Shown here piece by piece: positions 258 to 62,604 of a stretch of DNA of 64,000 nt. The position numbers and the translations under genes are program-made. Each line of letters starts with the position of its first letter. The first letter of the stretch is position 1. This DNA comes from Pohlia nutans (taxonomy: Eukaryota; Streptophyta; Bryopsida; Bryales; Mniaceae): positions 7,960,213 through 8,024,212 of the forward strand of contig CM040093.1 of the NCBI GenBank assembly GCA_022496805.1, written 5' to 3'. Under the pieces are notes generated by a model, which was not told the DNA's origin, searched no databases, and saw nothing but the letters and a program-made list of their open reading frames with translations.

Positions 258-488
258 TTAGTCCCTAAAGGACCAGGAAGCCCAAATTGGTTTTTTATAG
301 TGGTTTTGAATAGATCCTACGTAGACGGCCTTTTATTCAAATTCATTTGTCTTTTGATCAACACGTGCAATGTTCTTTACTGATTCCAGTGATACAAGAT
401 TTGGTCCTATCTGAATTAAAATTTTCACAATAAGATCGATTGAATTTGTCATTTTAAAACTACGAATCCGTGGTCCTTTAAAGGTTAG
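258..488 (-). mobile_element. TTAA MITE, family A, copy 1
   Basis: Ends TTAGTCCCTAAAGGACCA and the inverse of TAACCTTTAAAGGACCA. The interior matches the other A copies in inverted orientation (ATTCATGGTTTTAAAATGAC-like block). Termini are partly decayed, so this is an older copy. Confidence 0.65.
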
Positions 489-607
489 GGTTGGACAGAG
501 TTGCGTGTCACTGTAAACGTACATAACGACGGAGGACAGACTATTCATGATACAATTGAGAACCAGAAAGTTTCGCGCAACTGAGATTGACAAGGTTGCA
601 ATGAGGT

Positions 608-863
608 TTAACCCCTAAGCGTCTAAAACGCCCAATATGGCCATCTGCATATATCACTGAACTTTGCAACGGTGGCATTTTCTCATTTTACCTCGGTTTC
701 CTGATTGCAATACATCATTTAAAAGCTCTTGTTCTCTTCTACACGATCAACAGTGTCGATCGTGTCAAACTGCAATCATTTTCACACAAACAGATGATTT
801 GCAGCAGGGGTCCAATTTTCCTACACTACTACAGACAATACAAAGTGGACGCTTAGGGGTTAA
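608..863 (+). mobile_element. TTAA MITE, family B, copy 1
   Basis: 256 bp. It starts TTAACCCCTAAGCGTC and ends GACGCTTAGGGGTTAA, a perfect 16-bp inverted repeat including TTAA. This intact copy has an unoccupied interior site near 712-715 that is occupied in the B copy at 38672. Confidence 0.85.
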
Positions 864-1169
864 GAAAATTGCGTTAGATACAACGAATTGACTTCCAATA
901 ATTGGCCACAATCAAGCAATGCACTGTCATGCTCAAGATCGGCTTACCTTCTTTGCAGAAATTGGTAAAATCCCCGACCGCTTGGCAACTCCGCCTGCAT
1001 ACACGCATTCACTTTCCACCGCAAACAAAAAAGGACACTGCGCCTGCTCGACAATGCAAACTAATCCGATTCATCAAAGCCGTACCAAAACAGAATACCA
1101 GTTTTCTACTCCACCGATTATAGAATTCAAGCACTCTAAAACACTCATGTACAAACTATAAACCTGTAG

Positions 1170-1560
1170 TTCGAATTAACAACTAATAAGCTTCTGTTGC
1201 CAAAAAACAAAGTTTGCAAACAAGTACATTCTCGAAAAGTTGAAGCTATCGCTGCAATTAATAGGACCTCAAAATTCGTAAGGCAAAATCCACAGTCAGT
1301 CAGGCCTCGAACTAAGAGCCGAAAGGCAAGTATGCAAAACCCTGTTGTTTCCGTGTCTCAATCCAAGTCATCCCGGCTTGGATTATAATAGCAAGTTGAA
1401 ATCAGGAATCCTCGGAAGGCATCTGGGATCGTTGGGGCCAAGGGGGATGCACCTCGACAACGGCACAGATTGCAACCAGGTATCGTTAATCGCACGGTGC
1501 TCTCAAGCGCTCTTCAGCATCATCTGATTCCTGCCAGGAAGATGTCTACTTGCCTTCGGT
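1170..1560 (+). pseudogene. Interrupted coding-like segment, product unknown
   Basis: After a TGTAG acceptor-like site at 1169, one frame reads a basic stretch (VRQNPQSVRPRTKSRKA). It meets TAA and TAG at 1386-1391 and then continues in the same frame (NPRKASGIVGAKGDAPRQRH) to a stop near 1556 after CLRCCKP. GC content is locally raised. It may be two exons with an unseen intron or a decayed gene. I recognise no family. Confidence 0.25.
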
Positions 1561-2522
1561 GTTGCAAGCCCTAATTCTCTGATCTGAATGGGCCTAGGAG
1601 ATTAGGGTTTTGTTGGAGCTTCTATACTAGGGCATTTTTTTTTTGATTTTTCATCTAGTGCCCAACTGGCGATAGCTTCAAATTGACATCAAAAGGCAAC
1701 TTTGCTTTGGCTCTTCATGTGAGTTTTCCGCAAACTGATCTCTCTTTTGATGGACGTGACCCCCAAAAGTAGAGAAACGAAAATTGATCCCCTGGAATTC
1801 TGGAGGAAAAAAAGAAGGGCTGAGTTGAGGGGCCATCATGGACTGTCAAGTAAGGGATCCCATGGAAAAGAGACGCGTGGCGGATGAGGTCAGCGAAAAA
1901 AGGGGTTTTGAATTGGGGTCCAGAAAAAAAAAAAAAAAGGCACCGTTTTTGGACCTTCAAAACTTTGCAACCCGAATTTTTTTAGGCTCCAACATACACT
2001 CTTTATTGGGAATTTGAACTATTGTTCACACAAACTACACCCCACTCACCCACTGTTCAGTCACTTTGCGGATAACTCTATGGTTGTCTTGAAGAGATAT
2101 CAAATTTTCACGGTCCAAAAGAGCAGGTATATAAATGGTACCTTTGCGAATAGTCTTGGAAAAATCCGTAACGATTTGCTAGAATGCGCACGTGCTTGTG
2201 AAAAGCCTTTCCAGCCTTCTTTTCATCTATCCATTATTGGGGACAGGGGACAGACAATTCCCATTGCGTTCAAAACGTTATAGGAACTTGGGAATCGGTT
2301 GTCCAACTCTTGGGTCAATTGAGTTGCAGCCGCTACACACCCAAACACCCTAAATTGTTAGAATATTGAGTGTCACATATGTCCATCATTTTAATTCTCC
2401 TAGTGGATGACCTGGCTAGACCAACCCATTTTTTCAAGCATCATTGAATGAATGCAGTTCCAGATGCAACAGTTAATTGGGCAGACAATATATACAATCA
2501 TTGAAATTTCTCTTTATAGCCC
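1561..2522. other. Intergenic
   Basis: Nothing recognised. A frame at 2014-2283 is open but lacks an ATG start and any support. Confidence 0.3.
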
Positions 2523-3105
2523 TTAACCCCTAAAGGACCGGGGGGGTTTTTAGCTTAGCTCTTGTTTTCTTGACTAGCTCTTATAACAAGCTCAATTCCT
2601 CATTGGTGTGGGTTAATTTTGATGATCGGCACCGTTGAAATTAAAGAAGACTTACATAGCTTTTGTATGAAAAAAGGATCAACACAATCGCACAATTTTT
2701 GAGAAAATGCCACCGTTGAGAAGATTGATGGAACTTGTTCAGGGTATTTTGTACATATGCTGAAATCGGATTGATCAAAAGTGCTCCAAATTTTTTGAAA
2801 TTTCTACCATGCATAATGATCATCATTTTGAACATGTGCAAAAAAATTCAAATAATTTGGAGGTGTGAGGAGAAAGATATGAGGGTCTCAAGTGACGCCC
2901 AAATAACCTCCTTGCAACTCAAAAAAATCACCAAAAATTGCACACTTCATGAAATTTCGATCAAGAAGTACTCACGGATTCAGCTCTCAAAAAGAACTAG
3001 GGTCTCTTTGTTGCTCACTTTACAATTCACGGTCCAACAACTCGAAATTCCTCACTTTTTAGTTCCAAAAGCCACGTGGTGGCCTCGTGGTCCTTTAGGG
3101 GTTAA
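2523..3105 (+). mobile_element. TTAA MITE, family F, copy 1
   Basis: 583 bp with perfect 17-bp ends TTAACCCCTAAAGGACC and their inverse. The terminal inverted repeat equals that of family A but the interior is different. Confidence 0.8.
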
Positions 3106-5432: not shown

Positions 5433-5979
5433 TTAACCCCTAAACGTCCAGGCATCCAGTTTCTGGATGTTTGTTGGTCAAACCCAATTTTGATCTTGAA
5501 GACGACTTTTGTTGCTAATACACCCAACTAAGAAAATGAAGTTTATTAAGTCTAGTTTGAACTCCACTTTTCAAATCTTAAAAATTCCAATTATTGAGTA
5601 TTTTATTGCTTGTGCAAGCTTTGTAGCTCAAGGTTTGAATTACACTACATAGGATGTTCACCTTTCGAATTTCAAAATTTAAATAAAAATTTTCTATGGA
5701 AAACATATCATGTGATTCTCCATTGTAATTTGTACCTGCTCCCAAAAAAAAATTAATTTTTTAAAGCTTTTTTGTAATAAAATTTATTTTTTGAAGTATT
5801 TGACTTAAAAATTTGTTAAAAAGGCCGTATTAAATAAAAAAAATCTGAAAATTTCAAGACTGATAGGAAACATTCAATTCTATGCATGAAAAATATTACA
5901 AAATATATTTTGATAAATCTTGAAGGCTAAATTGTGTAGTTTGACTTTCCTACAAAGGAGTGGTACGTTTAAGGGTTAA
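5433..5979 (+). mobile_element. TTAA MITE, distant relative of family D
   Basis: 547 bp. It starts TTAACCCCTAAACGTCCA and ends TGGTACGTTTAAGGGTTAA. The middle (AAGTCTAGTTTGAACTCCAC) resembles the D elements at 39348-40817. Confidence 0.75.
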
Positions 5980-6030: not shown

Positions 6031-6847
6031 TTAACCCTTTAGTGCCTAAGTAACTACTAAGTGGTCACTAGATCACTAGAAAATGAAATGTTGTAAAATC
6101 TGTGAACCATCTCAATTCAATGTCTGAAGTTCAGTAGTGTAACTTTGCAGATGATGCAAAAAGAAAATTTGGAATTTGACTTTTTTAGCTATCCAAATAC
6201 CTATGTACAAAACACCAAAATATTGCAAATACCTCAAAAGACAGCATATACTTACAAATACAACACATATACTACGTGGTATTTCTTGTGTTTGGAAGTT
6301 TGTTATCTTGTATTTTATTTTGGGACTCTGTTCTCTTGTTCATGTTCCATTAGTGTATGTAGTCCGATCTTGATCAATGTACCAACTCTTTTATTATTTT
6401 AACGTATAAACTTTGTCCTAAACCGTACATGGATAAGTCACCCTCACTTATAAAATTCACAATAATTATGTATGAGTCCATTCTTGACGTGAAAGATTGC
6501 AATAGAGAGGTGTTGGCACAGGTCATTGCTGAACATCTTCACTTTCATTTTAGAAAATTTAACCCAAATTCTATTTAAACTTGAAGTCACACCCCCCCCC
6601 CTCCCCAAATCTCATTTTTGAGTGTGCATTATACGGTTCAAAGACATACTACCGGTATAATCTTCCAATTCAACGGTTGGATCTTACCAAGATTTAACCG
6701 ACACTTGTTTTATTAAGCTATATTTACATTTATACAGTTGAATACTATTAATGGTATCCCTAATTTCAATAGAGATTTTTTTTTTAAAAATACATCACCC
6801 AAAGAACTGTGGTTTCTTCAGAACCACCCTGGGCACTAAAGGGTTAA
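6031..6847 (+). mobile_element. TTAA MITE, family E, copy 1
   Basis: 817 bp with ends TTAACCCTTTAGTGCC and inverse GGCACTAAAGGGTTAA. It contains an 85-codon open frame (6145-6402) that also stays open in the copies at 41279-41506 and 57434-57682. Confidence 0.85.
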
Positions 6848-7328: not shown

Positions 7329-7543
7329 TTAACCCTTGATGGGGATAATAGATACGTTGGCGTATATTTGACATTTGTTGTAAATAGAAAGTTCCAAATT
7401 GAGACCCCAATAGCTCATTAAAAGCATGTCAACGTGAATTTTTACTTCACTTTTGATCTTAAACCCATCAAAGGTGTGGAACCATGCCAAATACAATGGA
7501 ATATTGTTGTATAATACCGGTTGGAAAGTCCTTTAAGGGTTAA
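7329..7543 (+). mobile_element. TTAA MITE, family G, copy 1
   Basis: 215 bp bounded by TTAACCCTTGATGG and CTTTAAGGGTTAA. The interior (GTTGGCGTATATTTGACATT) matches the copy at 53036. Confidence 0.75.
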
Positions 7544-7941: not shown

Positions 7942-8257
7942 CTAATTTAGATCCGTAACTATTTGGTGGTTTCAAATTTGAGTGATTGGACCGGTTCACT
8001 TTAAACTAACTGCTAATTCTTCCCAAACATAGGCAAAGAGAACCGACCTCTATTTACAAATTGATTAATCAAAATTGACACTTCACCAATTGAATTTCAA
8101 AACCTAACAAATTCTTAAGAAAAGTGACACGTGGCATGTCTTAATTGGTTGGAACCCCTAAAACAGACATAACAACTGACACATCTTGAGCCTATGACCA
8201 AATGATTTCAAAACAGTAGGGACTATTACTAGTTCTTCTCAAATCCTCTGTTAAAAC

Positions 8258-11200
8258 CTAAAGGACAATCCAAGTAAATTTTCCTCCAAGATTTATCAAT
8301 AGCAATACTTTTACATCAACACACAACACACAGAGAATCGAGATAATCGTATGACGATAATTAAAATTTCTCCTAGGCAAACAGAGTTTCTGAAAGGATA
8401 CGAAAATGTCAAGGAGGACACACACTGCTGCATCCACCAGCCATGCCAGATTCGGCTTCAGCTGCGCCCATTCCATGCTTCGAACCAGAATACTGCCGTA
8501 CATGAATGATCCCCATTAATCCAAAATCAATGTTTGCATGTCCAGATGATGACTGATAGACCATAAGTGACCGATAGGCCATTTTCTGGTCGCAGCCCAA
8601 ATAGTAGTGACTGCCCATGGTCAAGAAATGACATTTTTTCGGGTTTTGAATTTTGGGTCAAAATTAGGGGTAGAGATCATGTTCTACTGCTGTTTGAGTT
8701 TAGGGGTTAAAACTTCTACATTGCTACTGTTGGACTCAGACACTAACTGCTAAAGAACCATTGTGAATAAAGAGTCGATTAGAGGTAGTTCATCTATCCA
8801 TGCATGGAGGATATGGGCAGCGAGGAGGTTCAGAAGAAAAAACATACCTGCCCACATATGTCGCATTGCCCAAGAGAGCAAACACAAACATCAAAGGGTT
8901 GAGACCCTCCACTGTGCCTCTTTTAATCTGAAAAACAACACATGATCAACCAACATAAAATCCTATCCAAAATTCTTTTTGTGCACAATCTTGAGCTCAT
9001 CACCATGCATGCTCTCTATAGACTTTTGGGTTGTCATCCAAGGGTGAATTTAGAGAATATTAGTTATGCAGACCCCCAGTTTAAAACATGTTGCTGTCAA
9101 AATAACATTAAAAAGTACCACTGGAATATTGTTTCGACAGCGAGTTTTGCAGTAATGAAAATCGTCTGCCAGCAACAATGGAAAATTAATCAAGGATTTG
9201 TGAGTAGAGGTTTAGTGTTTACATTGAGGTAGATTTGAGGAAGCCGTCCGCCCATGTAGATACATGCCATGATCCATCCAAACACTTCACCTAAAGGAGA
9301 AGCCTCTTCTCCTAGAAATGGATCACCCAGGCTATGAAAACGACCAACATGAGTAGTACCCCCAGTAGTGCCACGTGGGCTTGTGATTAAGCTCAAGCCT
9401 AATGATCCAACTATCAACACACTGGATGCCATCTGCACCCCAAAAAGATCACAAAATATCCAAAATTAATAAACAAATCAATCCAGTACCTTGATGGTAA
9501 TATGGTAATAGCATTTGCTGATGAGTTTTATCAAGCATAATGTCAACTCAATCCAAAACATGCAGATGCTGCTAGAATGGGTGTGCAAGAGATTGTTGGG
9601 AGGGATCACAAGAGCATCCAAGTAACTGCGATCATTTAGACGCTCTTGCAATCCCATTTCACAAGTGAGATTTGTATATTACTAGTAGAAATCTTGTCAA
9701 ATATGACCTGTTTTCAACGACTAAATTCTGTTGTGACTTGTTTATAGTGACTCAAAATTACAATTTTCAGTCACTGTGTACCAAGTCACAACGAAATTTA
9801 GTCATTAAAGACAAGTCACATTTGACATGATTTCTATTACTATGGTCATATTCGTTATATTGAGACTTTTAGCTGATTTTGAGACAGAATGCCAGTTATT
9901 CAAAAATTCATTTAAAAAATAATAATTGAAACCAAAAAAAAATTAATGCTCAAATAGTGATTTTATAACGAAATTCCAAAAGGTGGTGTTGTTAAATATT
10001 TATAAAAAAATAGTAGTAAGGAGATAAAACGGTTTATCTTTGAGTCGAACATAAAAATGAGATTGCGAAAAGTCTGAATATAACGAATATGGCCTTTACT
10101 GTGTTGATCGTAGGGCTTAGGGCTTAGATTCAAGAGTAGGATTATGAGTTATGATCTTCTTATGACTAGTCAATGAGACAGTGACATAATTGAAGATTAG
10201 ACATGACATTGATGGCTTACTCCTCGTATTGCTGAGGTAGAGAGCGACGAAGACGAAGGTCGACGAGGGCGAGATTCAATGAAAACTGGCTGCTCTGAGT
10301 CTTCTCCGCTGAGCAAGTAGCTGTTGTAGCCACCTCCAGTTGAGCCTCTTGAGCCTGAGACACTGTATGAGCCTATTGGTTGGGCGTAGCTGCTGGCAAG
10401 AGACCTTGCAGATCTGCATAACAGATGTCACCAAATATAATTATGTCTCACATTCACCTTTTAAAAAGATTGTCACTTTAAATTTGTAACAACACGAAAA
10501 CGTAATTATGTAAACGTAATTACTTTTTCTACAACCACGTTTCGAATTTGAGTTACTTAGCATAATCTCAAAGAGGACACAGTTTGGTGATATGATAGTG
10601 ACAAAAATTAAAACTTGGGAATCTCTGAGTCGGAATAGAAACCAAAAAAAAGGAGTAGTTATGGATTAAATAACACTTAAGAGCATTATTGGATAAGTTT
10701 CACAATTCAATCATAAATCTCCATATTTGTGCTTTTGGTTAATCTAAAATCTTAGATAGAAGAGAAGGGTTATGGACTACATAATCGATGAGGGCTGGTA
10801 AGCCCGAGCCAATTACGGGACATAACCTATTGTACGCTCGTTTAATCAAGATTGTTCAATTTTAGCACAGTTTTGGTTATGAGTTCTAATCCATGAGTGA
10901 ATAGCCTATCATCTTGTGCCACATTTGCTCAAAAAATGGCACGGTAGGTTATGGGTTATAAATCTCCTTTGACTAGCTAATGATTGAGACAAAGCCACAG
11001 GTGCCTCAAAATCTAGACTTCTCTTCTCAAATGGCTGATATAAACTATAATAAGTGCAAACTTTCTGCTCTGTAATAAGAGGAGATTCTCAAACATGACT
11101 TGAAAACCCTACACAAAACTAATGTCTAAGGACAAGATTCTAGAGCTTAGAATTGTGCGAGGTCCATAATGTTTAAAAGAAACAATGAAATCTCACAAGC

Positions 11201-13952
11201 TTCAAAATCCCTTATTTGTTAGATTATTAATCCAAGTCCTAAGTCCTAATTCTATTAGCCAACATTACTTCTAGTTTGGTTGGTTACTACCAGTTAAGAT
11301 ACAAAAGGACAATCATGGGTAATGGTCTGATATGGGTACCCCGGTTACGTGTAACCGTATGTGTGACTGTGTGTAACTCATTTTATGCGTGCCAAAAATT
11401 TCGTTTTTAGCATAGTGTATGCAGCACCTACTATGCCATCTACAACACCATCTAATTTTTGTAATTTTTCAATATTTTTTCCTTACCAAAAAGATTTTTT
11501 TCTAAAATCACACTAATTCAGGAGGGGGTACCCATATCAGGCCATCACCCTCATGATCTTTCTCTGTATATGTTCTTCATGAACTTTCACAAACTCATCT
11601 TTTGTATTATTCTTGTTCTTTAAAATATGTGTTTTTGTTCTTACATGCATAATTTAATACTATTGGAATGCTGGACAACTTACTGGTAATATAAGTGGTC
11701 TCTGGTTCCCGGCGAGCTGCCGTGCTGATGATGGGGCACCCGGATGGACGTGGGTTGGCTGGATGCTAGACTTGCACTTTCGGAGCCTTCTTCTCCTGAC
11801 CCAGGAATGGGGATTCGCTTCTGCGCCTCCATGTCAGCTGTTTTTTGAATCTACGCACACATATACACACACTCCAGTTTAAACCTCCTGTAGTTTTAAC
11901 AGTTGCAATCATGCATCCAGGAATCAAGTGCGACACTCTTAATTTTATTTAGATTATTTTGTATGTTTAATGCTAATCCAAATCTCACGAATTAGTGTAC
12001 ATACTTATCATGAACACCATTTACTTGCACAACTAGGATTAATTAGCTAAGTAAGTTTGTTAGCAATGTAGGAGAGTAGCTATAACAACATTACAATTCT
12101 TAAATGTTGTTGAACAAGCTGTGACGTTGCTTAAATTACTCCCCCTACCTATGTGTATTATTCTAGTAATGTTGCTTTGATTTCTTGTTGATCACTCGTG
12201 AGTCACTATTCGATGATGGTGAGATTTTCAATGAGAAAAACTCATTTACTTTATCATACACTAAGGTCGTTACAAAAAATTAGAGATGACACTAAAGAGA
12301 ATGAAGAATGTAGCTACTACAAGTAAACAATAGAGGTTGAAAAACTTTCCAACTTTCTCATGAACTCAACATGTTGAAAGACTTTTGAAAGGTTTGGAGA
12401 ACTCTAACAAGTTGAGATTTTACTGAAGAGGATATCGTTAGCTGACCTCGGGAAATAGATCCACCTGCTCGCCTACCCACCAGCTGACAAGATGATCGTA
12501 GTAGATGGTTTGCAGTACCAGAACAATTGTCGTCAATGTGTACAGCTGATGCATGATCCACATATTCATCTCAGGTAAATTAGCTCTGGGTTTAGCCAGG
12601 GGTTTAAGTAGACATGCATCCCAATAAAGTTCCTTTTCTGCCACTTGGATATATGATCCATTGTGGATTCATACCATGGTTACCACGTATAGAAAGAGAA
12701 AAATGGTTCAGAATCTCACAAGCGCCATATAGAATTGAGTTGGCAGCTGCAAGGATCGACGAATCACAACCCACACGAGCCAAGTACTTCACCCTGTTAG
12801 CATTCATTCATGAAATAACAGAGTAACTTGAAAAAGATCTACTAGCACAGTCAAGCACTCCTTGGATATTAAGTAGTTTATATAACAATGGGAGAGGATC
12901 GACAGGTTAAGTTCAAGGCTAAAAATCGTGTGCTAATGTGGAAAACAGGGACTACTAATTAATTTCTTACTCTGTTATTTGAGCTCAGGCTAATTGCCAC
13001 GATCCTCCCAGTGAAAGCTACAACATTAATTTGAGATGAATTACAATGGGATGAATTAATCATCATACCGTGGCTGGCTCCAAGTAGCATCCCAATAGAT
13101 TAAACCCGTCCCTGCACATCAATTTATCAAGAGACGTATCGATCATTCAATGAACATTAAATTCAATGCCTTTCCTATCAGTAAAATATTCTTTGTTTGT
13201 TAGCTGTATAGTACAACTGTCGTTTACCAAAACAAAAATTCTCCGAGAGTGGTACAATAGTGAATACAAGGAACGAAGAGAATACGAGGAACTAAGAGGA
13301 CCAATTGTCACAAAACGCGTTTTGGTCACATTATACACAGTTCATCAAAGCTCCGTAAGAATTGTGCAGTAGTGAAGTAAAAGAGTCTGAAGGCCATGGA
13401 GTTTCTGTCGATGCATGTTTTCTTGTTCAAAAAACGGAGATTAGCGGTGAGCCTGCGGCAATGTCAGTGAGTAAAAGTCTAAAACGCCCAATCTGCATCA
13501 CTGAACTTTGCAACGGTGGCATTTTCTCATTTCACCTCGGTTTTCTGATTGCAATACATCATATTAAAGCTCTTGTTATATACTACAAGATCAACAGTGT
13601 CGATCGTGTCAAACTGAAGTCATTTTGACACAAACAGATGATTTGCAGCAGAAGTTAGTCCAAGTTTCCTACACTACAGAAAATACACAGTGGACGCTTG
13701 GGGGTTGATCAAGTACCCGACGACCCATGTCATGAGGAAGAGCAAGGAGACGCCCTCCGTGGACTTCTCCCGGAAGTTGGTGAGGATCTGCGGCACCTCG
13801 GCCACGCCCCAGCTCACCACGCTCATCAAGCCCAGCGCCAGCGAGAATCGATCTCGCGTGCTGCACACGCAGTCCAGCAGGTACCGCTGCACCCATCGCA
13901 CGCACGGCAAATCAACCGGACACTGCGGTTGCGGCCCAAACACTCCCTCCAT
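8258..13952 (-). CDS. PQ-loop vacuolar amino-acid transporter (YPQ / SLC66A1-like), 8 coding exons
   Basis: The gene joins eight exons: 13952-13717, 13111-13069, 12569-12447, 11850-11684, 10413-10221, 9432-9223, 8927-8848 and 8492-8258. All have GT/AG borders and consistent phases, giving about 428 aa. The first PQ-loop repeat has the PQ at residues 54-55 (WGVAEVPQILTNF), followed by DGFNLLGCYLEPAT. The second has its PQ at 319-320 (YMGGRLPQIYLN), followed by KRGTVEGLNPLMF and NATYVGSILVRSMEW. Between them is a hydrophilic Ser/Gly-rich loop. Seven membrane helices are expected. Family knowledge: yeast Ypq1, human PQLC2 and plant PQ-loop proteins export cationic amino acids from the vacuole or lysosome. 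The start is the ATG before EGVFGPQ; a longer reading begins with a non-ATG codon. The acceptor of exon 3 (12569) and the C-terminus after LLDIF are the least certain parts, because the last 40 residues may be intron read-through. Introns 1 and 5 carry MITEs. Confidence 0.9.
9679..9842. mobile_element. Small foldback element in intron 5 of the PQ-loop gene
   Basis: The arms match as TAGAAATCTTGTCAAATATG against the inverse of ACATTTGACATGATTTCTA, plus further pairing around GACTAAATT. It is about 164 bp, mostly arm. Confidence 0.5.
9844..10094. mobile_element. TIR MITE in intron 5 of the PQ-loop gene
   Basis: 251 bp with about 23-bp inverted ends, GGTCATATTCGTTATATT against GGCCATATTCGTTATATT. 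It is directly adjacent to the foldback. The superfamily is not evident. Confidence 0.55.
12614..12826 (+). other. 70-aa open frame inside intron 2 of the PQ-loop gene, antisense to it
   Basis: ATG to TAA on the plus strand, with balanced amino-acid usage (KVPFLPLGYMIHCGFIPWLP, later PTRAKYFTLLAFIHEIT). It may be a captured fragment of another coding sequence. I do not recognise it, and a chance frame is possible. Confidence 0.25.
13465..13708 (+). mobile_element. TTAA MITE, family B, degenerate copy in PQ-loop intron 1
   Basis: The interior is colinear with 608-863. The left terminus has lost its CCCCTAAG, and the right end reads GACGCTTGGGGGTTGA, so the TTAA is mutated. The right end lies five bases from the 5' splice site GTAC at 13716. 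Confidence 0.75.
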
Positions 13953-15464
13953 CACCACCAACCTCCTGAACCTGGAAGCCAACGATGTACGTTTACAGTG
14001 CCCGAATCACGCAGTTCTGTAACAATCGTTGCCCTTCAGTCTTCCTGGCAACCTCCTCAACTTGGAAATTGAGCCTCCACGCACCTTGTCCATGTACGTT
14101 TCTCTTGGCTCTCACAAGTAATCAAACTCACACAGAATTTAACTACGTCATCAGTTAATGCATGTCAGAGCAAACTTAGACTGGTTAATATACGCACTGG
14201 AATCGCCTTCGAGGTTCTAAAGCGTGAATTTAAACGTTCTTTCAACTACATCAGAGAGCTAGGTTAAAGCTCGAGAATACAGGACGTTGCAATATCCGAC
14301 CGTAATGACTCTTGAAATCCAATTTCAGACAAAACCTTGTGCGCGCATTATGTATCTGTCATCTCCACCGAAATCTAGCTAACCGCAAATGAACTCAGAT
14401 AGTCACCGATCGATTGAAGCTCAATAGTGGGCTGTAAGTGGAAAATATGGCAGTGCTCACCTTGTAGTAGAGATGAGAGATGCTAAGTAAGCGACTGTAC
14501 ATGCATGTCCTAGAAGATACTGGAGAAATAAAAGAGGATTACTGTTTCAGAATCTAGTCTTACTAACTTATCCTGACAGTACGTCGATGTTGATCACGAT
14601 GATGACGACGACGATGATAAGTAGAAATCATGGCTGCATCGTGTGTCGTTCGAAAGAAAGAAAGAAAGAAGGGTGCAAGTGGCGATAGTGATATATCGAT
14701 TCCTGACAGCACTATCGACGAGGCTCTGGGCCCGGAACGCCGCTACAGTGAATTGAAACGAATCCTGTCAATGTCTAGGCGTCTACTATACACTAGTACT
14801 GTGCAGGCAGGTGAATGAGTGGCAGCGGTGGAACGATCGATATATGCGCTTCGTCTTATCTGCAATTTCAATCTGTACGAGATGGGATTCCGCCTTTTAA
14901 TGTTTCAAAGTATAATACTGACAGTGTTCATTTGACTTCTTGTTTTATTGTCTCTGCCCCACCAGGAGAGAGACTACGGAAACGCTTCGTTTTTAAGGAG
15001 TTACATGGCTGAACAGTACAAACAAGGTGTAAAAGTAAATCTAGGGTAAATACTAAGACAGAGACTACGCGACTAGCCGCTTACGCGACTAGCCACTTGT
15101 TAAATTACAAAAAAATTGTTTTATTTGTGGAAAATTTATTATTAAAAAAAAGGAGAAAGAGTTGGTGATCTGAGTGAGTGATGATGGTGATCTGGCGGAA
15201 GTGGGGTCAGCGTATATCATGGGCGACGTGAAAGACGGTGGCGATGACACGATGCCCATGCACTTAATCCACGCCGCTGTAGTAGCGTAGCTTAGCTCAC
15301 TCTGACCGCATGCATGCACTAGCACCTGACTGCAAAGTACAGTGCAAAATTAGTCGAATGGAATTGACAAATTACCGGTTGAAACTCATAGTTTTAGGGG
15401 TAAAATTTGTGATACTCGGGTGCTACCTAGGTGAAACATAGGTAATAATCAGATGGGTTCTTGT
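13953..15464 (-). promoter_or_regulatory. Upstream region of the PQ-loop gene
   Basis: No element or other gene recognised. GC content is raised near the gene (to about 14100), and the region presumably holds 5' UTR and promoter. A 62-codon ATG frame at 14630-14818 is not supported by anything else. Confidence 0.3.
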
Positions 15465-15838
15465 TTAACCCTTAAACGTCAAGGTAAGCCCCATGGGCTT
15501 ATTTAAAAGAGAATAATCAAGAAAAGAGTAGATTTTCTCAACCAAATCAAGCGTGGATTGGTGCGTTGGAAAGCTACTGAAAAAGCGATCTAGATTGCAA
15601 ATTTGCGCCTCATTTGAGAGATTGTGGAGTCGTTGGTAAGCAATCAAAGTTGTGAAATTGAACAAGTTTTTGAGGTTGGGGCAGCTGAGATGCCGCAGTG
15701 CTACAGTGTTACAGTGAAAGCCAGCAGTGTCCCACAGAGCCGTTTTTGCATTTTTTTCGTTTTTTTTTTTTTTTCCTCCGAAAATTTAGATGCCTTCCGG
15801 GCTGCCCCGCCCAGGCCCTCTTGACGTTTAAGGGTTAA
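15465..15838 (+). mobile_element. TTAA MITE, family H
   Basis: 374 bp with a perfect 19-bp inverted repeat, TTAACCCTTAAACGTCAAG at the left and its inverse at the right. Confidence 0.85.
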
Positions 15839-46057: not shown

Positions 46058-46636
46058 TTTAGCTCCTAAATGCCCTGACCTCTCTCCAAATTTGGCAATT
46101 TTGCAAAGGTGAATTATGAAATGCAACTAAGAGGAATATTTTGAACTTGATGTATGAATGAAAGTTTTACATTATGAATTTTAAACTCTATTTATATAGT
46201 TAGATTTGCAATTGCTATCACCAGTATTTTTGTATAAAATTTCAAACTTGAAATTCAAAATTATTTTGTAATTTAATTACAAAATAAGATATTGACAATT
46301 TGTGGATGAAATTTGCTGAAATGGTTTGAAATGTAATACTCTAAGTGTAGTGATTTTTGGAGATTTTTTGGTTGCTTAAATTTTATGAGTTTAATTTTGC
46401 AAGAGCACATTTAGACTAAAATCTTTGAATTTTTGGTGAATCACTGCAACATGAAAGGAGGCATAAAATTTTCACAAATCTTCCCCTTTCTAATCAGATC
46501 ACACATGCATGAAGCTAACTTCCCATAAAATCTACCATCAAAATTTCATGCTGCAAAAAGATCATCACAAATGAGAAAACATGAAGTGATTCTATACATC
46601 AGTCATTTTCTACCTGATTGGGCAGTTAAGGGTTAA
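46058..46636 (+). mobile_element. TTAA MITE, family C, copy 3
   Basis: Left TTAGCTCCTAAATGCCCTGA, right GGGCAGTTAAGGGTTAA. The interior matches the other C copies. Confidence 0.75.
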
Positions 46637-49531: not shown

Positions 49532-50107
49532 TTAACCCCTAACTGCCTGAGCGTCCATTTTTTGGACGATGTATAGATTTCATCCATAATTTCTCATCCG
49601 TCATGCATTTTTTGCAGTGTGGAATTTTTAGTGTAGATTCTATGGGAAGTTAGCTTCATGCATATGTGATCCGATTAGAAAGGGGATGATTTGTGAAATT
49701 TTTTTGCCTCATTTCATGTTGTAGTGATTCACCCAAAATTCTGAAGATTTCAGTGTAAAAGTGCTCTAAAAAAAGTCAACTCATAAAATTAAGCAACCAA
49801 AAATCTCCAAAAATCACTACACTTAGAGTATTACATTTCAACCAATCACAAAGAATTTCATCCTTAGATTGTCAATATCTTATTCGTAATTGAATTACAA
49901 AATAATTTTGAATTTCACCTTTCAAATTTTATACAAAATTATTGGTAATAGCAATCATAGATCTAACCGTATGGATAGAATCTAAAATTCATAACGTACA
50001 ACTTTTATTCATATATCAAGTTCTAAATATCCCTCTAGGTTGCATTTTATAATGCATCTTTGCAAAACTGCCGAATTTGGAGAGGGCTCTAGGCATTTAG
50101 GGGTTAA
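49532..50107 (-). mobile_element. TTAA MITE, family C, copy 4
   Basis: 576 bp with ends TTAACCCCTAACTGCC and GGCATTTAGGGGTTAA. Inserted in the second unit of the 74-bp duplication. Confidence 0.9.
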
Positions 50108-51342: not shown

Positions 51343-51785
51343 TTAATCCCTAAATGTCTTCACCCCCTCTCCAAATTGGGCAGTTTTGCAAAGATGCATT
51401 ATAAAATGCAACTAAGAAGGATGTTTTGAACTTGATGTATGAATAAAAATTGTACATTGTGAATTTTAGATTCTATCCATACAATTAGATTTATGATTGG
51501 AATCACCACTATCTTTGTAAAAAAGTTAAAATGTAAAATTCAAATTCTTTTGTAATTTGATTACGAATAAGATATTGACAATTTGTGAATGAAATTTGTT
51601 GTGATGGGTTGAAATGTAATACTCTAAGTGTAGTGATTTTTGGAGATTTTTTGGTTGCTTAATTTTATGAGTTGATTTTTTCAAGAGCCGACTTTTGAAC
51701 TAAGATCTTAGATATTTTGGGTGAATCTCTACAATATGAAATGAGAAAATGCAATAAAATACATGGTTGGGCAATTAAGGGTTAA
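51343..51785 (+). mobile_element. TTAA MITE, family C, copy 5
   Basis: 443 bp, TTAATCCCTAAATGTC to GGGCAATTAAGGGTTAA, with about 130 bp missing from one side relative to the other C copies. Confidence 0.8.
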
Positions 51786-52987: not shown

Positions 52988-53790
52988 TAGAGTTAACCAA
53001 AAAGAGTGTTTCTCCGAGTGTCTCAATGTGGAACTTTAACCCTTAAAGGGCTGATGGGGATAGTAGATATGTTGGCGTATATTTGACATTTGTTGTAAAT
53101 AGAAAGTTCAAAATTGAGATTGCAATAACTCATTAGAATCATGTCAACGTGAATTCTAACTTCATTTTTGATCTTAAACCTATAGGAGGTGCGGAACCAT
53201 GCCAAATACAATGGAATATTGGTGTACAATACCGGTCGGAAAGGGCTCTCTAGACCCTTAAGGGTTAAACCATTAGGAGAAATATGGGGTCCCAAAGGGG
53301 CCCTGTAAGACAACCCGTGTTAGGTGAACCGGTTGCCCAATTACCCCTCTCCATGTAAACCTATTGGTGCAGGTCGCTGCTCGCTGACAGTGTCGGAAGC
53401 CGCAGTGTTGGCAGAGCTGGCAGTGCTGGCAGCGTCGATTCGCTTGACCCACGAAACTGCACTGCTGGCACCACGGTGGCCATTGGTGCCAGCGTGTAAA
53501 GTGCACGGTTTTCCCTCAAAATTTCAGCACATGCCAAAGGCAAAGGCCCCTTTGTGACCCCAGAATTCTCCTAATGCTCACCTTAGACATGTTTACAGTT
53601 CAAAAAGACTACAAAACCAATCTATGGTAAGTTGGAGAATAATCTAAAGCCAGGCCCTGCACTGCTCGTGGGAGTAGAATTCGTAACCTTTCCAATGCTA
53701 GAGGAGAGTTCCCACAAGTTCCTCCAAGCCAAAGGGACTATTCATGAGGGGATCAAGGAACTATTCATACACAATCCGTGTCACATATTG
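52988..53790. mobile_element. Element M copy with GC-rich insert and nested G
   Basis: It starts GAGTTAACCAAAAAGAG. The block GAGAATAATCTAAAGCCAGG matches the M relative at 45730-45850. A G element occupies 53036-53268. A GC-rich part with a GCTGGCAGTGCTGGCAG minisatellite lies at 53340-53540. The right end is not defined. Confidence 0.4.
53036..53268 (+). mobile_element. TTAA MITE, family G, copy 2
   Basis: 233 bp, TTAACCCTTAAAGGGCT to GACCCTTAAGGGTTAA. The interior is colinear with 7329-7543. Confidence 0.82.
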
Positions 53791-53848: not shown

Positions 53849-54421
53849 TTAACTCCTAAACGTCCTTACCCCTCTCCAAATTCGGTAGTTTTGCAAAGAT
53901 GCATTATGAAATGCAACTAAGAGGGATATTTTGAACTTGATGTATGAATATAAGATGCACATTATTCATTCTAGATTCTATCTATACGGTAAGATCTGTG
54001 ATTGCTATCACCAATGTTCTTGTATAAAATTTGAAGTTTGAAATTCAAAAATATTTGTAATTTGATTACGAATAAGATATTGACAATCTGTGGATGAAAG
54101 TGTTGTGATGGGTTGAAATGTAATACTCTAATTGTAGTGATTTTTGGAGATTTTTTGGTTGCTTAACTTTATGAGTATATTTTTAAAAGCACATCTAGAC
54201 TAAAATCTTTAAAATTTTGGATGCATCACTGCAACATGAAATGAGGCATAAGATTTTCACAAATCATCCCCTTTTTAATCGGATCACACATGAATGAAGC
54301 TATCTTGTCATAGAATTTTTTAGTATTTTTTTCCTTGCAAAAAGTGCATGGCGATTGAGAAATACGTTGATGAAACTTGTACATTGTCCAAAAAAAGGAC
54401 GGTTGGGCAGTTAGGGATTAA
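53849..54421 (+). mobile_element. TTAA MITE, family C, copy 6
   Basis: 573 bp, TTAACTCCTAAACGTCC to GGGCAGTTAGGGATTAA. Confidence 0.82.
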
Positions 54422-57094
54422 GCCCTAAACTTTGTACCCCTACTAAAAATTGGATTCTCTCCGATGCTCTTGGATGCTCTTTTTTTTCACATCTGAAGTT
54501 TGTTTTACTTGCTTGACTCCTACTAAATTCCTTCGTATAATGGCAAGTGTCATCTTTCACTCTAGTTCCAAAGAAAGTTATTGTATGAGTAAAAATCAAA
54601 CAATGCAGTAGGAGGTTGCAAAACCCTACTATTATAGAATGTAATGTAGGTTCTATGAGGCAAAGTTAGACATGTTGTAGTATACAAGATGCACTACACA
54701 TACATATGAGTTTCAATCTAAAAATAATAATATGTTGGCCTTTTTTTAGCTAAATGGAAAAACCCCATTTTAAACTTTTTCTTTAGGAAAAAATGGATAC
54801 AATTTTTGTTACTCAAGGTTTTAATAGAAATATGGAAATTATCTTAAGACTCAAATACAAAAAGAATCATGATTTTTGGGTTATTTTTACTAATATTAAA
54901 TATTATTACAAAATTGTTGAAGGTTAAAATTAGACTTTATTACCTTTCCAATGCACTTTGCGGTTTGAGGTTTGATGCAATTTTGAGCCCAAAGGAGCTT
55001 CTCAAAGATCATAGTTTCTAGCTTGGAGAAAAAAATTAAATAGTTTCTTGACCCCATAGTACATTCATGTACAGTAACCTACCAAAGAAATTGTCACTTC
55101 TTCTACCCACCAATGTAAAAATTGATCTAAATTGACACGAAATTGGTATTTTGTAAAAAAATTAAGGTCCACTTTTATCAAACACTACGATAATAAATTA
55201 CACCAAGTTTCACTTTCCATGAATAGATATGATAGATTTAAAGTTCCGATTGGACTTGAAAGTTGAAATTACCAAGATAAGAAACTTTCAGGTTAGAATA
55301 GGTTCAAAAAAGTTACAAATTTTTCATGTAAACGCAACATCATATCGATTATCGCCTATTACATTTGACTAATTCAAGCTCTACAACTATTTTATTGTCT
55401 ACACTTCTCCTACACACAAAAGTGATTTAATGTTTACCAAACTTGACCAATCTACTAATGTATGTGTCCATCCTTTGCTTTGATCACTACTTCCAAATTA
55501 GAAGTTATAGATCCACACAACTCAAGGAGATTGTTTTCACTAATCAAATTTCATTGGCATTGAAGATTACTCCTCCAAATTTTGGTCAAATGGATACTTG
55601 GACCATGCTCAATGGAATCTTTAAGGATCTTCCGAACATTTTCAATTGGGTTGAGATTGGGTGAATTTGTTGATCTAGTGATTAGTTCATCAAAATATTG
55701 TTGATATTTCTAAGTTCACATGATATTTGCTATACTCATGTCAATCACTCATCAATGGTCGATGACTCACTGATTACGAATCATCAAAACTTGTCAAAGT
55801 TAACCATGGTAATTTGAAAAAAATTCTTCAAATTTGTACGATTTGTGATTTTTGAGGTTTAAAAGAGATAAAAGAAATCATTAAAATCATAAAATAACTT
55901 AAAGTACTCTAAGTTTTTAGTGAATGGTGAGTTTCACAATGGAAAACCATACAGTACTACGTTTTAAATTTTGGCACTCTTGTGCTGAACAATTATTTTT
56001 ATTTTTATTTTTAAGTCTGGCAATCCCGAAATATTGGAATTTTTCTAAACTATTCATATTAGTTTTTTTTTAAATCTTGAAAAGAAATTTTCTAAAATTT
56101 TGGTATTTTCTAAAATAATATAATCATAGCCGAAAGTCCAAAAATATAAAGGTACTACGGTATTGTGCAAAAAGAATCTCCAAAACAATTATTTTGAAAA
56201 TTTGATAGGTTTTCATGTTCCAAAATGAAAGTTAGTTTTTGACCCACAAGGTTTTAAAATGCAATAAAGTTCTCAATATTTGGAATTTTTGAAAATAAAA
56301 AGTGAACTAAAAACCGGATTTGATGAAGTTTGGAAAATTTTATGAAGAATTCCTGAAAAATGGTGACATGGGTAATTTTGGAATAAGTTATAATTTCATG
56401 GTTTTGGGTGACAAACAACAATGTTTATGGTACTAGGGTAATGGACAGTAACTAATTACAGTCTACCTGTAAAGAGGGCATCAAAAGTAGCATGCGCCAT
56501 CTTGGTCTTGGTAGTCACATTGGTAGCACTTCCCCCAACAGACTCTTCATTCACGTTGGCCCTTCGGCCTAGAATTACCCCCTCTCTCTAACTAATTACA
56601 CTGCTTAAAAGTAGACAAAGATCGTTTTTAAACATACTTGGAAAACTTCATTCATTTCAAACAACACTAGTAACCCTTAAACGTCAAGAGGGTCCTTGGA
56701 GGGTAGCCCGAAGAGCATCTCTAAAAGTCTACAACAGTTGTTGTGCTTAAAAATAAATTAATAATTTTTATTTTATTTTAAAACAACCAGTCTACCACCA
56801 GCATTGGCAAACATGCACTGTTGGCCAACTTTTTTTTTTCTTATGTTTTTTTAATAAAAAAATGCTTTGTCTTTTTCCACAGTTGTTGCCTGATTATAGT
56901 TCCCCTCTTCCCCCAATTCCTTCATTTGATTGTGGAATCTACAATTGCCTAATAATTTAGTCGCAATTTGAGAATCTAGTCTTGTTGTTTCATCACCTTT
57001 CCAAGGCACCAATCCATTTCAATTTTGATTGAGAAAATCCACTTTTTACTCCATTCTTCTCTCATTAACAAGCCCGTGAGGCTTGCTTTGACAT
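54422..57094. other. Intergenic
   Basis: It holds repeat R (56461-56600) and an H-family fragment at 56669-56720 (TAACCCTTAAACGTCAAG). Nothing else recognised. Confidence 0.35.
56461..56600 (-). repeat. Repeat R, second coding-like copy
   Basis: It aligns in frame with 61262-61429 (NEESVG and AHATFDALF blocks) but lacks the ATG and stops early. It is probably a decayed copy. Confidence 0.35.
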
Positions 57095-57625
57095 TTAACC
57101 CTTAGTGCCCAACTAAGTAACCGCTAAGTAGTCACTAGATCACCAGAAAATGAAATGCTGTAAAATCTGTGAAACATCTCAATCCGGTGTCTGAAGTTCA
57201 GATGTATAACTTTTGATTCTGCAGATGATGCAAAAAGAAAAATTGGAATTTGACTTTCCAAGAGGATAATTTTATAAGTGAAAGTGTGCATTATACGAAA
57301 TTTGGAATCTGACTTTCCTAGACTTTCTCATTTTTGAGTGTGCATTATACGAAAGTCATACATAATTATTGTGAATTTTATAAGTAAGAGTGACTCACTT
57401 ATCCATATACGGTTTAGGACAATAATTTATACGTTAAAATAAGAAAGGAGTTGGTACATTGATCAAGATCGGAATACATACACTAATAAAACATGAACAA
57501 GAGAACACAATCCAAGAAAAAAACGAGATAACAAACTTCCAAACACTAGAAATATAGCATAGTACATATGTTGTATTTGTAAGTATTTGTTGTATTTTGA
57601 GGTATTTGTAGCATTTTGGTGTTTT
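57095..57625 (+). mobile_element. TTAA MITE, family E, copy 3, truncated
   Basis: It starts TTAACCCTTAGTGCCCA and follows E copy 1, but with a rearranged middle. It ends abruptly in sequence shared with 60815-60850 (CAAACTGGCATAGTTTCC). Confidence 0.65.
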
Positions 57626-57639
57626 GTAAGCAAACTGGC

Positions 57640-58813
57640 ATAGTTTCCAAAGAATCCTAAATAGAAAGGAGGGTGAACTCATGGTCTTTTAGATATAATT
57701 TTAACACTTAAATATCATTGCCATATCAAGGGGCTGGTCAAACAACGTGTTGAACCATCCTTTTTTTACATTGATTATTATTTTTTACGTATCATCTATG
57801 GTATTAATAGTATACTTATTACATATATATGCAATAAAGATTTTTTTTCGTTTGTATGTTACATTGACTGTATCTCCCAAACCATGCGCCTACCATCTGC
57901 ATTCTTGGTATCGTTGAAAAGCTCTCGACGAGAAGTTGTTTCGTAGCTTTCAGACCTATGATGTGGAAGTTATAGAATAGGAAATTTTAATCCAATTTTG
58001 TCACCATGAATTGAGTTAAATTATGGATAAATTATTCTAAAAATAAAATAGAAGCATGGCTAAATCACGGATAACACTTGGGACAACAACATAAAGCCAC
58101 ACTAGTTTGGATGAAAAATGCCCTTTATAATAGATAATTTGATGTATATATTAAATGCAGAGTGTCACGACCTGATGTCACAACCTCTATCACGTTTTCA
58201 TCCTTAGTTCTTCAACCACTACACTTTAGCCACTGTTCTTCGTCCACCGAAATCCATCCAATTTTTCATACCCATGTTGATATTTTTCGTGCTGAAGTTC
58301 CACTTGCAACATGCATATTGTTGCTTTGTAATAGGCTATTTTCTATCTCATCTCGTAGGGGAGGCATACTCCCCTCCAAGAGACCGAGATACCTTGCTTA
58401 GGACATCGTTCGCCTCGCCATTCTTTGGCAACTCTAGTGTGCCACGAATCATTTTATTTTCCAACATAACCTAATTATCAATGTTCTTCAAATTTGCCAC
58501 CTAGCTTAGAGGGACACTATTCACGCAAAGATGGCATGTAGGAACTCAGTCTTCAAATACTTTTACAAGTGTGGGGAGAAGAAACAAGCAACATCGGCTA
58601 AAGAGTTTTCTTCTACTTGGTGCGTTAATGAGATATTTTTACACTAGTAGTATTTTCTTAGCCAGATAAAAGCTCGCTTCCAATCTCACTTGCCTGTCGC
58701 CCTTCATTTGGAACCCTAGTTCATTGTTTTCTTCCTCTTTTTTTTGCACTCAATCGATTAGTCCCCACCCTTTCAAAGGAAAACGAAGGCTATTTGCTCT
58801 CTCTCTCTCTCAA
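57640..58813. other. Intergenic
   Basis: No gene supported. GC content is slightly raised at 58160-58470 and 58640-58760, with chance frames. Confidence 0.3.
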
Positions 58814-60054: not shown

Positions 60055-60127
60055 TTTTGAAGAGAATAGATGCTGCTCATGCAAAATGTATTGTTTTTTT
60101 TTTGTTAAACTTGGTGTTAAATAATCT

Positions 60128-61153
60128 GAGTTAACCCCTAAACGCCGCCGAGACCAAAAAATGGCTTATGAATGAAGTCGACTCTTCAATTCCAACTGCT
60201 GCTTGGATGATTTCCATCCATTTCTTTATGTGAAGGGCTTTGCTTGGTCATGCCACCCCTTCAAGTTAAATCAAACCATTCCAGCTATTTTTAGATTTTA
60301 CATGGGGTCCCAACTACAAAAAGAGTCGTAAAAACGGTTCACCGTGTAGTGTATTTTGAATTTTTGGAAAATTTTGAAAATTGAATGTTTTATTGTAGTT
60401 ACAAGTTCGGTAGGTATCACCAAGGTGTAGCAAATTTTCTAAATTTAGATACGCGGATGATTTTCATCAACTGAACTTTTCTTCATTGTAATTTACACCT
60501 TAGGTAAAAAAATCGGAATTTTGTAGTACATTTTGTAATTGATATAGATTTTCTTTACAATCACTTCATAAAACCATAGTAATTTCAAATTTTCACCCAA
60601 ATTTATGAAAAATTCATGATTTGTAGTAGACATGTGACTTCATCTACTAAAAATGTAAATTTGAATTCTGGTATTATTTTTAGTAGCAAAACTGAGTGTG
60701 ACAGATAAAACATGATTCCATGATCATAGGCCCAACCTTTAGGGGTTAACCGAAAAGAAGAGAAAATACATATTAGGTGAGGTGAGTATGACCTGTATCT
60801 AAGGCAGCCAAACAAACTGGCATGGTTTCCAAAGAATCCTAAATAGAAAGGAGTGTGAATTAATTTTGCCGTCACAAAAGAGGCAAAATTGGTGTGTTCA
60901 AAGAGAGCCAAGGCTTGGTGGCGATGGCCCACATCCAATTTGAGATAATGGCAAGGCATGTGGCAAATTTGAGATATAATTAGTTGACTGGTTTGATTAG
61001 TTGGCTCTGACAACTTGGAGCTCATGTTTAAAATTGAAGTTGGAGGGTGTTGAGTTCACTATTTGCTTTGATTTCGGTTATACTAAAAGAAGGCAGACTC
61101 TGGTTTCCTGATATTTTGGGGGTCAGAACACTTGTTCTGATTTCGGTTAACTC
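60128..61153. mobile_element. Element M split by a D element
   Basis: GAGTTAA at 60128, then the D copy, then TTAACCGAAAAGAAG. Right end the inverse of GAGTTAACCGAAATC at 61141-61153. Confidence 0.5.
60131..60749 (+). mobile_element. TTAA MITE, family D, copy 3
   Basis: 619 bp, TTAACCCCTAAACGCCGCCG to CCTTTAGGGGTTAA, with an internal deletion of about 120 bp relative to copies 1 and 2. Confidence 0.88.
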
Positions 61154-61261
61154 AAGTGCTTCAGTCTTGATATGGTTTATAATATGAATGTTTCAAGGAT
61201 TAAGTTGTATTTTTTGAATGGATTGGATTTAACCAAAAGTAGAAAATTTCTAATGATAGGA

Positions 61262-61429
61262 CTAGTGTGAGCAAAGAGGTTGTTGGTGATAGTTCTTATT
61301 TGTTTTGTGATCATAAAGTTTATCCTCGAAGACGGTATCGAGGGTAGCATGCGCGAACTTGGTCCTCATGGCTAAGTTGACAGTACTTTCTCCAACAAAC
61401 TCTTCATTCATGTCAGTCCTCCGAGCCAT
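61262..61429 (-). other. Dispersed coding-like repeat R, copy with open frame
   Basis: From ATG at 61429 a 55-aa frame reads MARRTDMNEEFVGESTVNLA and continues AMRTKFAHATLDTVFEDKL. A related frame occurs at 56470-56580 (RRANVNEESVGGSA then KTKMAHATFDALF), with an ATG-to-CTA change at the start. The upstream part (61440-61590) matches 27590-27730. It may be the 5' leader and first codons of a retroelement or of a duplicated gene; unassigned. Confidence 0.35.
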
Positions 61430-61599
61430 AGTTTCTCTCTCTCTCAGTGATAGAAACTTCAGTCTTTTTTCGAGGTCAGCGTGAATAAAAGGTCTGTTCA
61501 TTTAATCATTTTGACAATGAGCCAATGCACACTCAACGAAAGACCATTGGTGCAAAACTACTCTCCCTTTCCGAGAATAGGCACTCGGACTAGTGATTA

Positions 61600-62056
61600 A
61601 GTCACGGATATCTATAAGATTTTTTTGCGGCACAAAAATATGATTTTTTAAATTCTTACAAACTCCTTTATGGCTAATTGATTGTTTCAACATCCTTTCT
61701 GTTTGAATAACAACTCGTACTTGAAGACCTTACACAAAGAAATTCCTATCCTCTAATGCAATGGACAATTAAATTGTGGTAGCAATTGATTTTTGGTTGA
61801 ATGTCAATTCTGAAAGAACTTCCAGGTTTTTTTATTCAAAAATAATATTGTTTTTAAACTTGCAGGAGATTTTTTTTTTTTTCCCCAATGACACCAAATT
61901 TGAGAGAATCCAGGCTTGGATATATATATTTTATAATGTAGGATGTGCATGCACACAAGGACAATTCTACCACCATAAAGTCTATGGTGTCAGAGTCTAA
62001 CCTCATTTGAAGATAAAGCATATATTTTGAAAATGCATTGATTTTTTTGCCAATTT
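61600..62056. other. Intergenic
   Basis: Nothing recognised. Confidence 0.3.
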
Positions 62057-62604
62057 TTAACCCTTTAACGTCCCGATTCAACACTGTTTTTAAAGAAGCG
62101 CTATAAAATGCTCGATGAAAACCAAAAATGGGGCTCATGGTCAAAGAAAAGTTGTAAATGTCAATGTGAAGATCACATCTGTACGGTTGGATTTATTATA
62201 TTTTTGTTTAATAATTTTAAATTAATTTTGCAAGGTTTTCTCTTGAAATTCAATTTAAAATCCAAAATTAGCACAATTTTTTATAAAAATACGGTAATGA
62301 AATTAAAATAACATGCACTACGAGATGGTATGATTTCCATTATTTGATTCTACTTATTTTGAAAAATCATATTTAAGGTCCCACTTTTTGAACTAAGAAT
62401 GAAACTTGACATAAACCAATTCTGTTGTTTTTCTAAAAATCATAATAACCTTTTTTGAAGATCCAAACCGTACAAAGGATAGTCAACTTGCTCAAGAACT
62501 AAGAGAAATTTTGGTGGATGAAAACTACCCGATTTGGATGAGAATCGAGCAGTTTCAATCTGTGCGTCGTCCTCTATGTGGACGCTGGCGCGTTAAAGGG
62601 TTAA
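62057..62604 (+). mobile_element. TTAA MITE, family J, copy 1
   Basis: 548 bp with ends TTAACCCTTTAACG and CGTTAAAGGGTTAA. An older copy lies in NDUFB8 intron 3. Confidence 0.85.

Follow-up and report, generated by a model that had tools for sequence, protein, structure and literature searches.

Introduction

The piggyBac superfamily of DNA transposons, whose transposition mechanism is described in an excerpt of PMC7351741, is hosted by animals, fungi, protists and, occasionally, plant genomes such as those of red algae (PMC12732532, in excerpt). We analyzed a stretch of 64,000 nucleotides (hereafter the window) in contig C9 of a genome assembly of 698 Mb and 332 contigs, 23 of which (C1 to C23) reach the length of chromosomes, 12 to 52 Mb. 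An earlier reading made from the letters of this stretch alone (hereafter the original prediction) had described about 28 insertions, in about ten families with unrelated interiors, that share TTAA and CCC(C/T)T(A/T)A termini, and had classified them by termini and target as piggyBac-like miniature inverted-repeat transposable elements (MITEs) of a land plant. Our analysis makes it very probable that these repeats are non-autonomous MITEs of the piggyBac superfamily in the nuclear genome of a land plant. Longer elements of the same genome, bounded by the same ends, encode transposases of that superfamily.

The name PiggyBac has been used for plants before. Excerpts of two papers mention plants and fungi, along with animals or insects, as hosts of piggyBac but give no details (PMC10140906 and PMC10813416), and an excerpt of a third counts PiggyBac among the superfamilies of plants and cites its use as a tool (PMC10794571). 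A review lists PiggyBac among the MITE superfamilies of angiosperms, in a passage that has no transposase, and the available text of the paper has no TTAA (PMC10004981). In the fern Ceratopteris, the excerpted repeat table holds 1,230 PiggyBac annotations amounting to 122 kb, or 0.00% (PMC6890710). A match to "piggyBac" in a moss paper turned out to be the word "piggybacking" and was discarded. Searches of the open-access literature, which largely leaves out subscription journals and preprints, found no report of a land plant with transposase-bearing or abundant piggyBac elements. The original prediction had taken active or abundant piggyBac-like elements to be undescribed in land plants; given the review and the fern table, this is too strong.

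Repeats with shared ends in the window

The end motif TTAACCCYTWAA occurs in 24 exact copies in the window, whereas 20 sequences simulated with a first-order Markov model have 0.15 on average and never more than 1. With up to one mismatch, 48 copies are found, versus 3.65 on average and at most 8 in the simulations. The intervals delimited by such ends number 31. Both ends have at most two mismatches in 23 of them, TTAA lies on both flanks of 24 (including 57095-57711, the right end of which is doubtful), and 21 have both properties. An end with more than two mismatches is found in the eight intervals starting at 8097, 13472, 22133, 24087, 38303, 43904, 56670, and 57095. The union of the 25 top-level intervals, excluding the weak 8097-8710, covers 14,053 bp, or 22.0% of the window. 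Self-BLAST of the window yields 11 groups (A to K) and one doubtful single interval, 8097-8710. Groups C and H have one window copy each. Apart from one host element split by later insertions, the intervals are 215-817 bp long. Their terminal inverted repeats (TIRs) are short, start with CC(Y) as in the piggyBac superfamily, and have a consensus of about CCCYTWARNGNCC in the end columns. The intervals are short, non-coding and multicopy and have ends in common with autonomous elements, as MITEs do; terminal matches beyond the tip are found for families I, J, and, weakly, H. The picture drawn by the original prediction is a fair one in number, family count and extent (about 14 kb), the shared termini are borne out by the excess of exact ends, and its outer coordinates, 258 and 62604, are correct though the ends of 258-488 are decayed. 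The unrelated interiors that it describes need a qualification: groups C and J share a weak 104-bp match (72%), so the family interiors are not wholly unrelated.

TTAA flanks and empty sites

For the flank analysis, 13 reference elements were stripped of TTAA and used to find matches in the window and in those fetched loci that are 3 kb or longer; the bases flanking each match were then read. A total of 93 distinct ends were obtained, 25 from the window, 48 from 20 random loci, 13 from eight loci (L001-L008) that had been picked by the end motif itself, and seven from transposase loci. Flank positions -4 to -1 are T, T, A, and A at 82, 83, 83, and 85 of the 93 ends, respectively, while the positions from -5 outward are flat; exact TTAA is present at 64 ends. 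The random loci alone give the same pattern, with T 42, T 44, A 45, and A 43 of 48. Conservation therefore spans exactly four positions, as in the TTAA duplication that the original prediction had proposed and that characterizes the piggyBac superfamily.

Two empty sites were found. In the window, a family A element at 38672-41759 (+ strand) is split at an internal TTAA by four later chained insertions, and another family A copy, 42243-42469 (- strand), is whole and uninterrupted at that TTAA. Outside the window, the full-length element of locus L037 lies within a repeat of which locus L031 has an empty copy. The empty copy reads TTGA at the insertion point, versus TTAA on both sides of the filled one.

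Long elements with the same ends encode transposases

A search of the genome with the DDE_Tnp_1_7 profile returned 1,305 first-look candidates. Only the best candidates, 116 in number, were scored, so the scored set leans to intact copies. All 116 exceed the cut-off (E 1.6e-81 to 3.1e-74) and lie on contigs C1 to C22, and ca. 78 by hand count have no stop in the matched stretch. No DDE_Tnp_1_7 match was found in 14 control genomes. Ten loci (L029-L038) picked from the best stop-free matches were fetched, and element ends were called at up to one mismatch and facing inward. Both ends bound the transposase at four of the ten, namely L030 (215-5721), L032 (624-6591), L037 (843-6229), and L035, whose left end lies in the fetched stretch L058. 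These full-length elements are 5.4-6 kb long, the three measured being 5,383, 5,503, and 5,964 bp. A right end alone is present in five other fetched stretches (L029, L031, L033, L036, and L038). The longer elements sought by the original prediction, with the same ends and a DDE_Tnp_1_7 gene, are thus present, and the full-length elements found with these ends encode this transposase rather than one of another superfamily, which supports a classification first made from termini and target.

Counts of ends beside transposases were rejected as proof of element boundaries. The ends are so dense in this genome that an oriented end beside a transposase is by itself weak evidence, and the argument was built on homology breaks, empty sites and terminal matches. 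In the sibling pairs L030/L031 and L033/L036, each with its two members inserted at separate sites, homology ends no more than 1 bp past the terminal TTAA.

Terminal DNA is common to the long elements and to two or three MITE families of the window, the main matches being 108, 51, and 45 bp long in families I and J. In family I, the left 108 bp of 49532-50107 (- strand) match the left end of the autonomous L037 element (80%, E 5e-24), and the right 86 bp of 53849-54421 (+ strand, TTAA on both sides) match the same end at 73%. The right end of 46059-46636 (+ strand) matches the L032 left end over 51 bp (78%). In 24087-24671 (+ strand), the right 71 bp match the L032 left end (73%) and the left 20 bp match the L037 right end (95%). 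In family J, three ends match 45 bp of the left end of the autonomous L030 element at 82-87%: the left ends of 60131-60749 (+ strand, 87%) and of the nested 39348-40088 (+ strand, 84%), and an end of the nested 40085-40817 (- strand, 82%). The tie of family H is weak, with the left 29 bp of 23252-23825 (+ strand, TTAA on both sides) matching the L033 right end at 86%.

Features of the transposase

The ten aligned transposases have the DDD triad of piggyBac, in that the first and third Asp are present in all ten and the second in nine, with Asn in L031. In L034, the triad is D231, D317, and D434. Six Cys/His positions of the C-terminal tail are invariant in all ten, as in the Cys-rich domain of the superfamily; none of the curated Pfam zinc models exceeded its cut-off in the eight transposases scanned. 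By sequence, the proteins match 6x67, the T. ni piggyBac transposase (5.6e-35), with three aligned Asp of 6x67 that we take to be its catalytic residues. An AlphaFold2 model of the L034 protein has a mean predicted local distance difference test (pLDDT) score of 81.6. Its best structural match is 6x67_C (E 3.3e-27, TMt 0.76), followed by piggyBat 9c0f and then by Tn5, and the transposase is hence predicted to have the piggyBac fold. The ratio of nonsynonymous to synonymous substitution rates (dN/dS) is 0.30, 0.10, and 0.10 in three transposase pairs; in three pairs of greater divergence, synonymous sites have reached saturation.

We built a tree of 54 proteins, comprising the ten transposases and 44 relatives picked by hand from the relative lists, with an arbitrary root. 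The ten transposases fall into at least four lineages among metagenome proteins, and a 100/100 branch separates them from a set of ten named animal proteins and six unnamed proteins. In the two relative lists (best 120 of 182 and best 120 of 248), every organism-named protein is from an animal and reaches at most 34% identity. As plant annotations often mask transposons, the lack of named plant relatives proves little. One short metagenome contig from the Joint Genome Institute (JGI) encodes a transposase (P0001) very near that of L032, with a total branch of 0.08, so a near relative of the L032 element is present in environmental data. The transposase frames of L029-L038 have a G+C content of 0.45-0.54, versus 0.35 for the window.

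A second conserved frame upstream of the transposase

Seven of the ten loci contain a homologous open frame of ca. 100 residues upstream of the transposase. It lies at 855-1268 in L030, 193-606 in L031, 1596-1907 in L037, 612-926 in L033, and 625-939 in L036, and on the minus strand at 6272-6682 in L035 and 5480-5767 in L032. The aligned rows are 25-85% identical to that of L030 and have 12 invariant columns. By coordinates, the transposase frame is +1 relative to the upstream frame in L030, L032, L033, L035, and L037. At E 0.01 the frame was found neither in the window, the 20 random loci and L001-L008, nor in L029, L034, and L038, some of which may simply be truncated. Comparison with Pfam and PDB sequences gave nothing convincing, with one stray Pfam match at 0.11; the frame of L035 has a stray match to a proline-rich Pfam model, below the cut-off. 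The predicted structure is helical over residues 1-120, with blocks of pLDDT between 66 and 92, and a structure search with this model returned no fold match below E 1e-3. Three readings of the frame are conceivable, namely an accessory protein, a 5' exon of the transposase, or a frameshift fusion, and our main interpretation infers one of the first two. Were it a separate protein, the notion that piggyBac transposons have one gene only would change.

Abundance in the genome

The genome-wide search for these ends that the original prediction had proposed found 61,610 and 61,760 exact copies on the two strands, ca. 123,000 in all, versus 795 and 906 for the reversed motif. The 17-mer TTAACCCCTAAACGTCC occurs 4,990 and 4,878 times, versus 0 and 0 in the comparison. 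Contig C1 was sampled at even spacing in 20 loci of 10 kb each, and 20,027 of these 200,000 bp (10.0%) match window elements, with 0 to 3,803 bp matched per locus and three loci without a match. The window, at 22.0%, is hence richer than the sample. The figure of about a tenth of the genome for MITEs of the window type is extrapolated, being based on a single chromosome and on the window families only.

The host genome

The window contains a PQ-loop repeat gene (Pfam 3e-15) with exons within about 8,260-14,006. Among its relatives (best 120 of 156), the named ones are all from land plants, ranging from seed plants to the lycophyte Diphasiastrum, and the closest among the matches listed are unnamed, with 79-91% identity over part of the query. 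The assembly also has an intact green-plant rbcL, with many plastid copies on small contigs. Its best match is the large subunit 9chz (ca. 95% by hand count), followed by 1wdd, 1aa1, and 1gk8. We take 9chz to be from a hornwort and the other three to be from rice, spinach, and Chlamydomonas, respectively. Both genes agree with the land-plant host given in the original prediction, and by these sequence matches the host is probably a land plant outside the angiosperms. Dozens of small contigs among C26-C329 have an intact rbcL of the same score and represent unplaced plastid DNA.

Alternative explanations

Plants are rich in Stowaway MITEs, and a Stowaway-like Tc1/mariner origin would make the duplication TA and the termini ACCCYTWA, with the outer T merely a target preference. 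The empty sites are compatible with it, since the collapse of TTAACCC...GGGTTAA to TTAA alone fits a duplication of 2 bp as well as of 4 bp. At the 93 ends the outer T (82) is as conserved as the inner TA (83 and 83) and position -5 is flat, which speaks for 4 bp; the 2-bp reading is disfavoured. The transposase between such ends is moreover that of piggyBac, in a genome not searched for mariner transposases. We consider a Stowaway-like origin extremely unlikely. MITEs of the Kolobok superfamily, which also duplicates TTAA, should have 5'-RR termini (PMC9587614, in excerpt), whereas base 2 is C at all 93 ends and base 1 is C at 78, T at 10, and A at five. Since CC termini contradict RR, Kolobok was rejected and keeps virtually no chance of being right; the same-ended transposases are of the DDE_Tnp_1_7 type and the one modelled has the predicted piggyBac fold, while Kolobok transposases were not searched for in the genome.

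It is also conceivable that the MITEs have nothing in common with the piggyBac transposases beyond a TTAACCC tip. The TIRs are short and the interiors dissimilar, chance alone would place some ends near transposases, and none of families A to G and K matches a fetched long element over a long terminal stretch. Against this stand the terminal matches of up to 108 bp in family I and of 45 bp in family J, the loss of homology of sibling elements at the same TTAA, and the empty site of a full-length element, in view of which a merely coincidental tip is very unlikely. That the transposases come from contaminant animal, fungal or algal DNA in the assembly could be suspected from their richness in G+C and from the named relatives among the matches listed, all of them animal. 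Against this, those relatives reach no more than 34% identity, all 116 scored matches lie on chromosome-size contigs, and a window MITE adjoins an exon of the plant PQ-loop gene. Contamination is hence hardly credible.

Several observations weigh against assigning the MITEs to the piggyBac superfamily. No such end occurs in the 7 kb of L034, the left end of L031 (seen in L057) is decayed, and the right-end candidates of L038 (6069 and 6344) look like families K and I and could be those of MITEs next to it. At the end density of the 20 loci, chance would account for the ends beside transposases with P = 0.008 on the right (9 of 10) and P = 0.93 on the left (3 of 10). Among the window families only I, J, and, weakly, H are tied to fetched autonomous elements; the tip matches of A to G and K are all short or weak, with a maximum length of 42 bp in family B (74%, E 0.002). 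Finally, no transposition was observed.

Inventory of the window

The remaining intervals are given by family, on the plus strand unless noted. Family A has a further copy at 608-863, with TTAA on both sides, and a copy with decayed ends at 13472-13708. The latter borders one end of a PQ-loop exon, by eye apparently a few bases from the splice donor. Family B is represented by 2523-3105, with both ends exact, and by 22133-22579 (- strand), which has lost one end. The only copy of family C is 5433-5979, with both ends exact. Family D has a copy at 6031-6847, and family E has copies at 7329-7543 and 53036-53268, all three with TTAA on both sides. Family F has a copy with both ends exact at 15465-15838. 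At 56670-57711, without assigned strand, a decayed family F copy (56670-57098) stands beside a decayed family D copy (57095-57711). Family G comprises 17668-17896 and 22783-23020, each with both ends exact, 38303-38549, with a decayed right end, and 258-488, of no assigned strand, which has decayed ends and matches the family of 17668. Family I also includes 51343-51785, with TTAA on both sides. Family K has a copy with both ends exact at 62057-62604 and a decayed one at 43904-44449 (- strand). The possible single element 8097-8710, without assigned strand, has a clear right end alone, its left end having four mismatches.

The segment 38779-41621 consists of four head-to-tail MITEs, all within the split family A element. 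Specifically, a family I copy (38779-39351, - strand) is followed by the two nested family J copies and by a family D copy (40814-41621, - strand). Neighbours have a single TTAA in common, so the later insertions took the TTAA at the edge of earlier elements.

An Rfam scan of the window gave nothing at gathering scores, and a Pfam scan of ten window open reading frames (ORFs) found PQ-loop exons only and no transposase. Two ORFs, at 34650-35831 and 37007-37582 (- strand), encode 393 and 191 residues without a Pfam match and are possibly exons of one gene.

Discussion

The MITEs would be mobilised by DDD transposases of the piggyBac type, supplied by longer elements of the same genome with the same CCCYTWA termini. 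By analogy with the known piggyBac mechanism, the transposase would nick at the element ends and form TTAA hairpins, excision would leave no footprint, and joining of the ends to a TTAA target with a 4-bp stagger would place TTAA on both sides of the insert. Such cross-mobilisation, and the hairpin chemistry with it, may still be active at present. To a broader picture we give an even chance: piggyBac would be a leading DNA-transposon group here, with about one tenth of the sampled sequence, more than 1,000 transposase candidates and several deep lineages, and would form a plant-hosted branch in which an undescribed helical upstream protein (or 5' exon) is needed for movement, in a host that is probably not an angiosperm. 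The presence of complete-looking transposases and tens of thousands of TTAA MITEs in a land plant broadens the known range of hosts in which piggyBac flourishes and raises the question of how it entered this lineage. Such elements could become a source of piggyBac systems native to plants, for genome engineering that leaves no footprint.

Compared with T. ni and other animal piggyBac elements, those described here have the same TTAA target, short TIRs starting with CC, a DDD transposase of the DDE_Tnp_1_7 type, a Cys-rich tail and, by prediction, the same fold. They differ in size, at 5,383-5,964 bp versus 2,472 bp for T. ni piggyBac (PMC10803768, in excerpt) and 2.1-3.2 kb for the piggyBac-like elements of beetles (excerpt of PMC12732532), and in having a second conserved frame upstream. 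The ten copies and many metagenome relatives are also set apart from the ten named animal proteins by the 100/100 branch. Animal piggyBac MITEs, such as mPok of Daphnia and the coral MITEs, are likewise short non-autonomous copies related to piggyBac; here, in contrast, the host is a land plant, with 11 groups in a 64-kb window and ca. 123,000 exact ends in the genome. Unlike for the PiggyBac MITEs named for angiosperms and a fern, a transposase is present and its ends match. What is new here is hence the host, the scale, the element size and the upstream frame, and not the kind of transposon.

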